Below are positions 49,036-53,284 of a stretch of DNA of 53,284 nucleotides, piece by piece. A program made the position numbers and the translations under genes. The notes below the pieces were generated by a model. It did not search any database and was not told the DNA's origin. It was given only the letters and a program-made list of their open reading frames with translations. Within the stretch, counting starts at the first letter, position 1; each line of letters starts with the position of its first letter. The DNA is from Bacteroidetes bacterium 37-13 (GTDB taxonomy: Bacteria; Bacteroidota; Bacteroidia; Chitinophagales; LD1): contig MKTC01000038.1 of the NCBI GenBank assembly GCA_001897535.1, forward strand, positions 1 to 53,284. The letters run 5' to 3'.

Positions 49036-49060
49036 TTGAATGTTTCAAAGTTTTACAAAA

Positions 49061-52000
49061 ATGCGTGCGGCTTTGCTTTTGATATTGGCTTCTTTTTGTG
49101 CATTAAGCGTAAGTGCGCAAACTGCCGAGTATCGCTCTGCTTTAAACAAAATGTATTGGAAAAATAAGTTGCCATATCTTGGTTATTGGCAGCAAGATGT
49201 TCACTATAAAATTGATGCTAATATTGATGAAACAACAGATATAATCACCGGAAGCGAAACACTTGTTTATTACAACAATTCCCCCGATACATTACATGAA
49301 TTGTTTTTTCATCTTTACCAAAATGCTTTTCAGCCCGAAAGCTATTTGCACTATCTGCAAGAAGCAAACGGTGTGAATCCCACTTATGGAAAGTACGAAG
49401 CAAGCAAGCAGGGAATTACAATCGAAAAAATTCAAATTTCAGATAACCCAGCTATTGAACTTAAAACAGAAGTAGATAATACAATTTTAAAAGTAAAGCT
49501 TCCAACAGATTTACTGCCAAATGATTCAATAAAACTCAATATAAATTTTAGAACATTTTACGAACGCGGAAGCACGCGCAGGCGCATGAAAATGTACGAT
49601 GCCTGGGGTTTTAAACACTACAATGGCTGCCAGTGGTATCCTAAAGTTTGTGTTTATGATGCATACAGCGGTTGGAATACCGACCAGCATTTGAATCGCG
49701 AGTTTTATGGCAACTTTGGAACTTTTGAAGTAGCACTCACATTTGCTTCAAACTATATTGTAGAAGCAACCGGAGTATTATTGAATGAAAGTGAAATGCT
49801 TCCGGATTCTTTAAAGCAAAAACTCCAAATTTCAAATTTTAAAAATAAAAAATGGAATGAAACTCCGAGTGTAATAATCCCATACAAAAAAGGAGAAACC
49901 AAAACCTGGAAATATCGCGCAATCAATGTGCACGATTTTGCTTTTACTGCCGATCCAACTTATCGCATTGCCGATACTTCTATTTTGCTCTCAAACGGAA
50001 ATAAAGTACAATGTGTTGCTATTGCACAAGAGCCACATTGCAGCGGTTGGCAAAATGCAGCAAGCTATTGCGCTAAAATAATAGGCACTTTCAGCCGAGA
50101 TTTTGGGAATTACGAATATCCTAAAATGGTAGTTGCCGATGCAGCCGATGGCATGGAATACCCGATGCTTACTTTAGATGGTGGCAGCGACCCGGGTTAT
50201 CGCGGTTTGTTGGTTCACGAAGTTGGACATAATTGGTTTTACGGCATGTTGGGAAATAATGAAACTTATCGCCCAATTTTAGATGAAGGATTCACGCAGT
50301 TTCTTACTATTTGGGGGTTAGAAAAAATTGATAATACAGATACTACAATTTATGAATGGAACAAAATTAAGAACCGCTATTTGCGCCACTTCACGGAGCC
50401 GCAAAATATTCGTGATAGAAATGCTTATTTAAGTTACTTGTCTGATGCGCTTCGCTACAACGATGAGCAGTTAAATACGCACAGCGACCATTTTCATGGA
50501 GCGCTTGGGCAAGGTGGCGGCTACAAACACGTGTATGTAAAAACCGCAACCATGCTCTATAATTTGCAATATGTGTTGGGCGATTCACTCTTTTTGGCAG
50601 CCATGCAGCACTATGTAAATACATGGAAAATGGCACATCCTTACCCAAACGACTTTCGCAATGCAATTATTCGCTTCACCAAACAAGATTTGAATTGGTT
50701 TTTTGATGAATGGATGGAAACAACTCAAAACATTGATTACAAAATTAAATTGGTGAAGAAAGGCGATATAACGAATGAATATAAAATTACCTTTAAGAGA
50801 AAAGGCAGAATGCAAATGCCAATTGATTTTAGTGTGAAGGCCAAGAATGGCAAAACCTACAATTATTATATTCCAAACACTTGGTTTGAAAAGAAAGATA
50901 CTTCTACAACCGTGTTACCGCGTTGGATTGGTTGGGATAAGCTAAAACCAACTTATACCGCAACGGTGAATATTCCTTCAGGTATTAAAAATGTAATTAT
51001 TGACCCAAGTGAAAGATTGGCGGATATAAATATGCTGGATAATCGCTTGCGCGGTAATGTAGAGTTTCGTTTCGATTCCAGAATATTTCCGCTTTCATCA
51101 TGGAAAAAATATAGAATTTGGATGCGCCCCGATATTTGGTGGAATGCTTATGATGGCTTTAAGTTGGGCATTCATCTACACGGAAATTACATGAATGTGA
51201 AACACAATTTTGCATTTTCTGCTTGGGTGAATACGCATTTGGCACAAGGCGGAGAAAAGTTCTTTCCACAATCGCAGAAAACGAAAGCAGGCTGGTTTTC
51301 GTACCGATTTGATTATAGCACAGCAATAGATAAACTAATGAAAGATGCTACATTTTATTTTAGTTCGCGCTGGTTAGATGGCTACGAAATGTATAGAACC
51401 GGTATTCAAAAGCAACTGCCTAAAAACTTTAGTTTAGATGTGAACCTAAAAGCCTTTACACGCAATCGTTTAGCTTGGCGAAATTACTTAATCTATAAAG
51501 ATGAATGGAGTACTATTTGGGATAATAATAAAAGCTTTAATGCAAGCATAAATATTACGGCAAACTTCCGCTATTACAAACCAAAGAGCTCAGGAGAAAT
51601 AAGAGCAACGCTGCGCAGTGCTACACTTTTCAACAGCTTCAATTATCACTATTTAGAAGTTGAACATACCAACACCACTGTTTTATGGCGCTTAGATTTT
51701 CGCAATAGATTTTACGGTAGAATTGGCACAGGAAATAATTTGCCAAATGAAAGTGCATTGTATTTTTCTGGTGCAAATGCAGAAGAAATGATGGAAAATA
51801 AATATGTGCGGGCGCAAGGCTTTTTTCCTCCACAGTGGATAGGAAGTTATGGTACACAAACCAATCATTTTCATTATGGTGGCGGTTTAAATTTGCGCGG
51901 TTATAGCGGCTATTTAATTCCTGAAAAAGATAATTCAGGCAAAATTGGCTTTGCTTATCGCGGCAATAGCGGCTGGGCTGTGAATACAGAATTAGATTTT

Positions 52001-52297
52001 GCCAAAATTGTTCAGATTAAGAAGAATAAACTAAAGGAATGGTTTTCTCTTAGCACCTATTTGTTTGCCGATGCAGGAATGATGTATTACACCAATGCAA
52101 GTGGAGAAAATCAATTCTCTCAGTTGCGTGCTGATGCAGGTGTTGGTGCAGCATTAACTATTAAGAAGTGGGGTGTTTTGCAAGGAGTAAAACCGCTTAC
52201 GCTTCGCTTCGATATTCCATTTTATTTAAGCCATGCACCGGCTACAGAAAACAATGTGCAATGGCGCTTTGTGGTGGGAATAAATAGAGCGTTTTAA
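49061..52297 (+). CDS. M1 metallopeptidase fused to a C-terminal Omp85-like beta-barrel
   Basis: 1078 residues from 49061, where the signal peptide MRAALLLILASFCALSVSAQ begins; 49040 is also in frame but lies at or before the likely transcription start. Residues 25-660 are an M1 aminopeptidase: N-terminal beta domain, substrate motif variant DGMEYP, zinc motif HEVGH (386-390) with the following downstream Glu in DEGFTQF, then a beta-sandwich. From about 675 the sequence turns into alternating amphipathic strands rich in Trp and Tyr. It carries GGGLNLRGY at 940-948, about 133 residues from the end, then NTELDF, FADAGMMY, ADAGVGAAL and PLTLRFDIPF, and it ends in Phe. This order matches Omp85/BamA-type barrels, whose RGF/RGY motif lies at a similar distance from the C-terminus. 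I infer an outer-membrane-anchored peptidase. Confidence 0.85.
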   Translation: MRAALLLILASFCALSVSAQTAEYRSALNKMYWKNKLPYLGYWQQDVHYKIDANIDETTDIITGSETLVYYNNSPDTLHELFFHLYQNAFQPESYLHYLQEANGVNPTYGKYEASKQGITIEKIQISDNPAIELKTEVDNTILKVKLPTDLLPNDSIKLNINFRTFYERGSTRRRMKMYDAWGFKHYNGCQWYPKVCVYDAYSGWNTDQHLNREFYGNFGTFEVALTFASNYIVEATGVLLNESEMLPDSLKQKLQISNFKNKKWNETPSVIIPYKKGETKTWKYRAINVHDFAFTADPTYRIADTSILLSNGNKVQCVAIAQEPHCSGWQNAASYCAKIIGTFSRDFGNYEYPKMVVADAADGMEYPMLTLDGGSDPGYRGLLVHEVGHNWFYGMLGNNETYRPILDEGFTQFLTIWGLEKIDNTDTTIYEWNKIKNRYLRHFTEPQNIRDRNAYLSYLSDALRYNDEQLNTHSDHFHGALGQGGGYKHVYVKTATMLYNLQYVLGDSLFLAAMQHYVNTWKMAHPYPNDFRNAIIRFTKQDLNWFFDEWMETTQNIDYKIKLVKKGDITNEYKITFKRKGRMQMPIDFSVKAKNGKTYNYYIPNTWFEKKDTSTTVLPRWIGWDKLKPTYTATVNIPSGIKNVIIDPSERLADINMLDNRLRGNVEFRFDSRIFPLSSWKKYRIWMRPDIWWNAYDGFKLGIHLHGNYMNVKHNFAFSAWVNTHLAQGGEKFFPQSQKTKAGWFSYRFDYSTAIDKLMKDATFYFSSRWLDGYEMYRTGIQKQLPKNFSLDVNLKAFTRNRLAWRNYLIYKDEWSTIWDNNKSFNASINITANFRYYKPKSSGEIRATLRSATLFNSFNYHYLEVEHTNTTVLWRLDFRNRFYGRIGTGNNLPNESALYFSGANAEEMMENKYVRAQGFFPPQWIGSYGTQTNHFHYGGGLNLRGYSGYLIPEKDNSGKIGFAYRGNSGWAVNTELDFAKIVQIKKNKLKEWFSLSTYLFADAGMMYYTNASGENQFSQLRADAGVGAALTIKKWGVLQGVKPLTLRFDIPFYLSHAPATENNVQWRFVVGINRAF

Positions 52298-52380: not shown

Positions 52381-53284
52381 TTAATATTCTATAGCTGTAA
52401 TTGTTCTATGAGAGTAATCCGGTGCTGTAGCTGGTTCGCAGTAAATAGTTCTTTCTACTATTCCAGTACGCATCCACTGCAATGTAAGCGTATGTGAAAC
52501 ACCAGTACTTACTGTAACGGATTTTGAGAAAGACAAGTTCCATCTAGTTACAACAGATGAATACCACCCATCTACATCTTGTCCTACAGTACCAGTGCCT
52601 CCAATTGATACTCCATCAAGCAAAACTCTTGCATAAACATTTTGTTGTACATCAGCATTGGTTGGATCGGAACGCCCTGACATAGTAAATGAAACTAAAA
52701 TGTTTGATTTGGTTGGTGTAAAGGTTAAGCTTAAACCTGTATTGGTATAAGTTGTTGAGTTCATACTAATATTAGTAGTGCCTGTTGCTGAGTATATATT
52801 AGTAGAAGTTCCAGTTGGACCTTGTGGTCCTTGTGGCCCGATTGCACCAGCAGGTCCTTGAGCACCTTGCAGTCCTGTTGGCCCTGTAACACCATTAGCT
52901 CCGGCAGGTCCTTGTGGCCCAGTTGGTCCTGTAACTCCAGCACCTGTAGGTCCTTGAGCACCTTGCGGTCCAGTAGCACCATCAACACCATTAGCTCCGG
53001 CAGGTCCTTGTGGCCCAGTTGGTCCTGTAACTCCAGCACCTGTAGGTCCTTGAGCGCCTTGCGGTCCAGTAGCACCATCAACGCCATTAGCTCCGGCAGG
53101 TCCTTGTGGCCCTGTAGGTCCTGTAACTCCAGCACCTGTAGGTCCTTGAGCACCTTGCGGTCCAGTAGCACCATCAAGACCATTAGCTCCGGCAGGTCCT
53201 TGTGGTCCAGTTGGTCCTGTAACTCCAGCACCTGTAGGTCCTTGAGCACCTTGCGGTCCAGTAGCACCATCAACGCCATTAGCT
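52381..53284 (-). CDS. Collagen-like (Gly-X-Y) repeat protein with C-terminal head domain (5' end outside window)
   Basis: The frame enters from the right edge and runs to the TAA at 52383-52381, giving 300 visible residues. The first 158 or so are Gly-X-Y triplets ([20 protein letters not shown]) built from a 32-residue unit. The last 140 residues are a beta-rich domain ([20 protein letters not shown], then [13 protein letters not shown]), similar in feel to the trimeric heads that cap bacterial and phage collagen-like stalks; exact family not recognised. The longest open frame over 52761-53279 is an out-of-phase reading of the same repeat. No T9SS sorting domain is present at the C-terminus, and no signal is visible because the N-terminus is outside. 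Probable surface stalk or fibre. Confidence 0.87.
52901..53284 (-). repeat. Four tandem 96-bp repeats encoding collagen-like units
   Basis: Head-to-tail units at 52901-52996, 52997-53092, 53093-53188 and 53189-53284, near-identical with a few substitutions. A more degenerate copy precedes them. Each 32-codon unit is not a multiple of three residues: it carries one short step (PTGAGVTG), so the Gly-X-Y register is interrupted once per unit. Confidence 0.93.

Follow-up and report, generated by a model that had tools for sequence, protein, structure and literature searches.

A predicted M1 metallopeptidase fused to an Omp85-type barrel without POTRA domains in Bacteroidota

Fusions of an enzyme to a barrel of the Omp85 superfamily are, to our knowledge, few, with PlpD (PL-Omp85, type Vd) being the best studied. 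For PlpD, a topology of self-secretion was proposed first (PMC4104836, PMC11116518), and the enzyme domain was later placed in the periplasm by experiment (PMC11116518). Heinz and Lithgow (2014; PMC4104836) sort the superfamily into ten kinds, including the patatin-like, 'Metallo' and noNterm ones, and describe Omp85 barrels that lack POTRA domains, some having a metallo-enzyme at the N-terminus and others none; the term 'Omp85-metalloproteases' is used there, and periplasmic quality control is already weighed against translocation. Here we analyse an open reading frame (ORF) from a 53,284-nucleotide stretch of DNA of Bacteroidetes bacterium 37-13 (contig MKTC01000038.1, positions 1 to 53,284; hereafter the window), which encodes, in a single chain, a leader, an M1 metallopeptidase with an HEVGH-X18-E zinc site and a barrel with Omp85 hallmarks, in this order. 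Judging from structural models and from the analogy with PlpD, we consider it likely that the product is a periplasmic M1 aminopeptidase anchored in the outer membrane.

The ORF comprises 1085 codons before its stop (49040-52297, plus strand), and residues are numbered after this 1085-residue form throughout. The second ATG, at 49061, is the likelier start, as Met8 is conserved to at least 90% across an alignment of 64 rows, that is, the window protein and 63 relatives. The latter come from 80 loci, the best 80 of at least 556 confirmed relatives, found with the scan patterns DGMEYPM and DLNWFFD; since these patterns contain it, GMEY is favoured by the search, whereas the other motifs are not. 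The 17 loci left out of the alignment were cut, lacked a full start, were near-duplicates or failed a filter for HExxH-X18-E, DGMEYP and an ORF of at least 700 aa. An earlier note on this DNA, made without database searches, had suggested a survey of M1 homologues for the same C-terminal extension; in 80 of the 80 best named loci, counted with no motif filter, the M1 and barrel profiles share one ORF. Going by the domain databases alone, one might take the product for a normal soluble M1 peptidase, or suspect that the assembly has wrongly united two genes, given that Pfam sees only M1 and the NCBIfam matches, likewise to M1, are weak and far under cut-off. However, the recurrence of the fusion in all of these loci and in 62 or more of 198 genomes of the order, the window's own among these 198, together with a barrel confidently predicted in two models, refutes this explanation, to which we assign next to no probability.

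The M1-barrel fusion is widespread in Bacteroidota. Going by their titles, the 80 loci belong nearly all to metagenome-assembled genomes or single cells of this phylum, the isolates among them being Taibaiella soli R1-15 and T. helva F-4; two loci carry other group names (L080, Azovibrio restrictus, and L111, Phycisphaerales) and perhaps stem from misassigned bins. Matches reaching residue 1061 or beyond are found in 46 of 60 relatives overall, including 29/29 in the same genus or family, where four are in pieces on separate contigs (G007, G015, G027 and G029) and one is cut at 1061 (G016), and 17/30 in other families of the order. In the 62 or more genomes of the order, the match runs to the end of the profile.

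The barrel half was modelled twice with AlphaFold2. The full chain, predicted from the 64-row alignment, yielded a two-domain model with a predicted local distance difference test (pLDDT) score of 87.2 and a predicted template modelling (pTM) score of 0.83, and the barrel folded alone yielded a pLDDT of 89.0 and a pTM of 0.85, with strands that agree with those of the full model. Both place 16 strands, the number expected of the C-terminal barrel of Omp85 proteins, between residues 691 and 1083. In the full model, strands 1-8 lie at 691-702, 706-717, 721-731, 753-762, 770-779, 782-793, 797-808 and 834-847, and strands 9-16 at 850-861, 868-882, 885-900, 977-986, 1002-1018, 1030-1041, 1053-1063 and 1078-1083, the tiny strand pieces inside loops (961-963, 969-971, 1024-1026) being left out of the count. 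The earlier note had named a soluble M1 C-terminal domain, or the lack of barrel topology, as an outcome that would overturn its proposal; both were looked for, and with 16 strands predicted, an ordinary soluble domain is rejected.

Because the structural search of the full model with VIA-align showed M1 alone, the barrel was folded and searched separately. All 50 rows listed by Foldseek are BamA or TamA entries (best E 1.3e-9), and 49 of the 50 listed by VIA-align are titled BamA, TamA or SAM (Z 18.0-20.6); the remaining one, 5ayw, is titled 'Structure of a membrane complex' and is presumably the BAM complex. On this assignment, the 50 listed rows of each program are BamA, TamA or Sam50 entries, in line with the fold that had been proposed. 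The best VIA-align match is Deinococcus BamA (Z 20.6, root-mean-square deviation (rmsd) 4.1 over 297 residues), and the others include a fungal mitochondrial SAM chain (Z 20.1) and BamA of F. johnsoniae (Z 19.0); sequence identity is 9-17% in the 50 listed rows.

The Omp85 hallmarks from which the barrel was originally suspected, namely GGGLNLRGY, ADAG strand patterns, PLTLRFDIP and a terminal Phe, were all located in the sequence (RADAGVG at 1030-1036 and PLTLRFDIPF at 1052-1061; for the others, see Table 1). The (V/I)RG(Y/F) motif at the tip of loop 6 (L6) and the (F/G)xDxG motif on strand 13 are the essential signature motifs of these barrels (PMC7644211). In the window protein, LRGY (952-955) starts 134 residues before the C-terminal end, close to the distance of about 133 given before, and has Leu at the Val/Ile position, as does BamA of F. 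johnsoniae, which also reads LRGY (PMC12611786). An LRGY-type motif is present in 80/80 loci, 79 of them by pattern, the one missed by the pattern (L135) reading PGGLNLRGY; FxDxG is found in 79/80, and the miss, L131, is interrupted by a contig end. Asp1011 of the latter motif is invariant in the 64 rows. A salt bridge between Arg and Asp joins the two motifs in characterized proteins, with a Glu on strand 12 as a further partner in CdiB (PMC7644211). With both motifs present, an Arg953-Asp1011 lock would, by way of L6, close the lumen of the barrel.

The N-terminal half had been called canonical M1. The zinc site bears this out, HExxH-X18-E being present in the window protein and in 80/80 loci, as do the Pfam match (Peptidase_M1, residues 390-558, E 3.4e-11, the sole Pfam family in the protein) and the fold: the 50 listed VIA-align rows of the full model reach Z 25.9-28.2 against M1 structures, with Thermoplasma F3 on top (Z 28.2, rmsd 2.9 over 462) and the two-domain M1 of Deinococcus aligned over residues 50-660 (Z 27.2). 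The exopeptidase motif of the M1 family, GxMEN, departs from the canon, being replaced by GMEY in 80/80 loci, which were found partly by this very motif; Met and Glu are kept, and Tyr takes the place of Asn. By analogy with M1 enzymes, Tyr499 is presumably the catalytic tyrosine. Other sequence comparisons gave two weak aminopeptidase N matches in NCBIfam, far under cut-off, plus one chance match, and weak M1 matches among PDB sequences. The M1 half would be an active peptidase. The same genome encodes, on another contig (C16, locus L168), a second long M1 protein of 985-1009 aa, the C-terminal 373 columns of which match neither the fusion barrel (probability 4.2) nor Omp85 (5.1) in hhalign (23-protein alignment) and are left unassigned; proteins similar to L168 are also encoded in related genomes and group as a separate clade in the M1 tree.

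In the full model, residue 566 is followed by the all-beta domain (567-655) and then, up to the start of strand 1 at residue 691, by a short strand at 674-678, a helical turn and coil; about 35 residues connect the M1 beta-sandwich to the barrel. There is no POTRA and no alpha/beta domain in this interval of the AlphaFold2 model, and a POTRA between the halves, of which the earlier note had seen no sign, is rejected, the sole extra domain being all-beta. The same note had spoken of a 'two-partner-in-one' architecture, and as a mechanism this is not supported: the DxxG motif that marks strand 1 of TpsB proteins (PMC7644211) is absent from strand 1 of the fusion, which reads YRIWMRPDIWWN, and the periplasmic POTRA domains of TpsB proteins, two in CdiB, have no counterpart in the model. 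A TpsB-type secretion barrel is rejected on these grounds; the absence of FhaC and CdiB chains from the 50 listed Foldseek and 50 listed VIA-align rows excludes nothing. At the joint itself, the sequence is conserved and the confidence of the prediction is fair to high. The pTM of the full model lies near the value for the separately folded barrel, which suggests that M1 and barrel are held in a fixed arrangement.

These features bear on which side of the outer membrane the enzyme would face. With an even strand count, and with its elements in this order, the chain would have its N-terminal enzyme on the periplasmic side. The barrel might instead move the M1 domain across the outer membrane, in the manner of type Vd self-secretion, to be displayed on the surface or released, a topology first proposed for PlpD, itself an enzyme on an Omp85 barrel; the link of about 35 residues before strand 1 could thread the pore. 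Yet the enzyme domain of PlpD was shown to stay periplasmic, the joint is conserved and predicted with at least fair confidence, the model has neither a POTRA nor the TpsB DxxG, and a barrel plugged by L6 would need to let through a folded domain of some 630 residues, so that we regard secretion or display as quite unlikely. The even strand number, the precedent of PlpD and the fixed arrangement suggested by the pTM therefore favour a peptidase anchored on the periplasmic side over one displayed on the surface.

In such an anchored periplasmic peptidase, the protein would be exported by Sec. The hydrophobic leader, as read from the sequence, ends near Ala26 and shows no lipobox, and the full-chain model predicts a helix over 2-25, with low pLDDT. 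The C-terminal barrel, judged by its fold, would insert in the outer membrane, with L6 closing its lumen through the presumed Arg953-Asp1011 contact, and the M1 domain would sit at its periplasmic mouth, in the place of the POTRA domains of BamA. There, on the inner side of the outer membrane, the enzyme may trim peptides, candidate substrates being those imported by outer-membrane transporters or pieces derived from failed outer-membrane proteins.

Each half also occurs without the other. Among the matches listed, 54 rows are M1 frames of 614-723 residues that end near the joint, all from families f17 and f20, and the 15 genomes of the order listed without a barrel match belong to the same two families; the full-length form is present in four f20 genomes (G411, G444, G476 and G482). 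The C-termini of four barrel-less proteins (L051-L054) fall near the joint, and the barrel-less matches mostly end at profile positions 654-671. In a tree of 52 M1 domains, four barrel-less rows nest among fused ones, the clade of these four and five fused rows having a support of 99/97 and the next larger clade 100/99. This nesting suggests that the barrel was lost in the barrel-less relatives and that the fusion is older, in a tree with a midpoint root, long branches and skewed composition, where the barrel-less rows alone form a clade with a support of just 92/63 and the barrel profile matches several of the fused rows only in part.

The barrel profile matches 53 of 296 genomes of the phylum, the window's own genome included, and among the 30 best rows, 28 are frames of 400-465 residues that stand alone, chiefly in family f43 and in some cases in f41. 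Of 20 regions of other families, one carries a fused gene and the remaining 19 carry stand-alone barrels, present as a pair in one region; the 21 barrel frames therein contain RGY in 21/21 cases and FxDxG in 16/21. Stand-alone barrels as genes split off from an adjacent M1 gene are rejected, since 0/19 loci have an ORF matching the M1 profile (E up to 1e-3, within about 5 kb). In one locus, two stand-alone barrel genes lie in tandem (L234:4969-7654, minus strand). Another (L222:4063-10980) shows the gene row greA, NUDIX, stand-alone barrel, acetate kinase, caspase-like (Peptidase_C14) protein, EamA transporter and phosphotransacetylase, and ORF sizes in several other loci of the L218-L236 range resemble those of L222, the one locus scanned.

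The retention of RGY, and mostly of FxDxG, in the 20 stand-alone barrels and the one fused frame makes the barrel seem useful without the enzyme, which speaks for a working Omp85 translocase or insertase in which M1 stands in for POTRA, taking up the client polypeptide and perhaps trimming it. In support of it, LRGY, FxDxG and Glu984, linked to function in other Omp85 proteins, are kept where a mere anchor might have lost them, and M1 occupies the POTRA position in the chain. Nevertheless, no conserved partner gene was found, no client is known, the barrel-less relatives in two large families suggest that the enzyme manages without the barrel, and a simple pattern search finds RGY in just 3 of 14 more distant fused relatives; we thus consider a working Omp85 unlikely. 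Its more specific form, in which M1 substitutes for POTRA and clients are caught at the periplasmic mouth, trimmed at their N-termini and inserted or translocated by the barrel, all within one chain, appears unlikely. In favour of the anchored peptidase, PF01103 matches two further genes of the genome (open frames, 903 and 801 aa), so that the fusion protein is probably not the main insertase.

Several observations weigh against an anchored aminopeptidase with an Omp85-type barrel and temper our preference for it. With GMEY instead of GxMEN, exopeptidase specificity is uncertain. The Foldseek TM-scores are moderate (0.39-0.51, query-normalised) with rmsd of 7.2-15.8 in the 50 listed rows, and strand amphipathicity parts the barrel from the M1 strands weakly (mean difference 0.96 versus 0.71). 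By sequence, a Pfam hmmscan with E up to 1 recognizes Omp85 in none of the 64 barrels, and a search of PDB chains with the barrel profile, at E up to 10, was empty. The PF01103 match of the fusion gene in the search of its own genome, at 19.2 bits (E 9.3e-4), is weak but independent support and falls below the cut-off of 24 bits; such weak matches can be due to chance, because a PF01103 search at E up to 1 also matched in 8 of 14 control genomes, including the archaeon Sulfolobus. A second piece of weak, independent support comes from hhalign, where the barrel profile scores a probability of 93.9 over 76 columns against 23 Omp85 barrels of related genomes, a set consisting of Omp85 barrels alone, chosen from 30 PF01103 loci by the RGF/RGY pattern. 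Finally, the neighbours in 81 loci indicate no pathway or conserved partner gene.

Table 1. Features of the fusion gene and its product (window coordinates; residues of the 1085-residue form)
Feature	Coordinates	Strand	Basis or remark
Whole ORF	49040..52297	+	1085 aa, 1078 aa from the likelier start 49061; stop included
Putative Sec-type signal peptide, residues 8-26 (MRAALLLILASFCALSVSA)	49061..49117	+	read from the sequence
M1 N-terminal beta domain and catalytic domain, residues 49-566	49184..50737	+	Pfam Peptidase_M1 390-558; VIA-align Z 25.9-28.2 against M1 structures
DGMEYP, residues 370-375, in the place of M1 GxMEN	50147..50164	+	64/64 in the motif-chosen alignment (partly by construction, as for HExxH-X18-E); 75/80 loci
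HEVGH zinc-binding motif, residues 393-397	50216..50230	+	sequence; motif counts in relatives
Third zinc ligand Glu416, eighteen residues past HEVGH	50285..50287	+	sequence; motif counts in relatives
Tyr499-x-Lys501, putative catalytic tyrosine of M1	50534..50542	+	64/64 each
Six-stranded all-beta domain (residues 567-655), no POTRA, likely the small beta-sandwich of M1	50738..51004	+	DSSP of model; within the Deinococcus M1 alignment 50-660
Fusion joint IDPSERLADI, residues 654-663	50999..51028	+	barrel-less M1 relatives end nearby
Predicted 16-stranded Omp85-type barrel, residues 691-1085	51110..52294	+	AlphaFold2 models; Foldseek, VIA-align
Loop L6, residues 901-976, between strands 11 and 12	51740..51967	+	DSSP of both models
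GGGLNLRGY, residues 947-955, L6 (V/I)RG(Y/F)-type motif	51878..51904	+	Arg953 64/64
Glu984 on strand 12, possible further partner of Arg953	51989..51991	+	64/64
FADAG, residues 1009-1013, (F/G)xDxG motif on strand 13	52064..52078	+	F, D and G each 64/64
Terminal Phe1085	52292..52294	+	63/64

Neighbours of the fusion gene within the window are mfd, mgtC-like and U32 peptidase genes, and in other loci rlmH-, nadC-, yihY/BrkB- or dprA-like genes, the commonest neighbour cluster (BrkB) occurring in 16/81 loci. In L100 and L136, it is preceded by rlmH-like, nadC-like and YihY/BrkB-like genes, and similar ORF clusters are found in other loci. A gene for a collagen-like Gly-X-Y repeat protein adjoins it in the window (52381-53284, minus strand) and is interrupted by the contig end; collagen-like ORFs adjoin the fusion gene in loci L014 and L019 too.

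Compared with soluble M1 peptidases (Thermoplasma F3, the two-domain M1 of Deinococcus, LTA4H, ERAP and APN), the fusion protein has the same N-terminal, catalytic and beta-sandwich domains and the same zinc site, but an Omp85-type barrel follows the beta-sandwich where APN or ERAP have an alpha-helical C-terminal domain. With BamA, TamA and Sam50 it shares the barrel fold, the RGY motif of L6 and FxDxG, and differs from them in carrying an enzyme instead of POTRA domains and in the low identity given above. Like PlpD, it joins an N-terminal hydrolase to a C-terminal Omp85 barrel; however, PlpD consists of a patatin lipase with one POTRA, whereas here an M1 zinc peptidase stands without any. 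The N-terminal patatin domain that defines type Vd is likewise missing, Pfam and fold comparison finding M1 alone. The 'Metallo' subfamily, as far as its available description goes, resembles the fusion in having a POTRA-less barrel with a metallo-enzyme, but the domain is PF00149, which we take to be the metallophosphoesterase family, rather than M1, and the stand-alone barrels resemble the noNterm subfamily. The words 'peptidase', 'aminopeptidase' and 'zinc' and the accession PF01433 are absent from the main text of PMC4104836, and no M1-Omp85 fusion was found in the available parts of PMC4104836, PMC11116518, PMC12611786, PMC7644211, PMC12045153 and PMC13067283 or elsewhere in the literature searched, which took in a minority of subscription journals and no preprints. 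At least one POTRA is counted among the marks of the superfamily in PMC11116518, whereas PMC4104836 includes POTRA-less subfamilies; having no POTRA, the fusion protein belongs to Omp85 only in the wider sense of the latter. It would thus add to the enzyme-Omp85 fusions a POTRA-less peptidase version, widespread in Bacteroidota and hidden from Pfam, since annotation based on Pfam, in which Omp85 goes undetected by hmmscan, would show an M1 peptidase alone. With barrel-less M1 proteins, stand-alone barrels and the fusion as natural controls, the use of each half can be tested, and the comparison bears on what an Omp85 barrel is capable of without POTRA domains.

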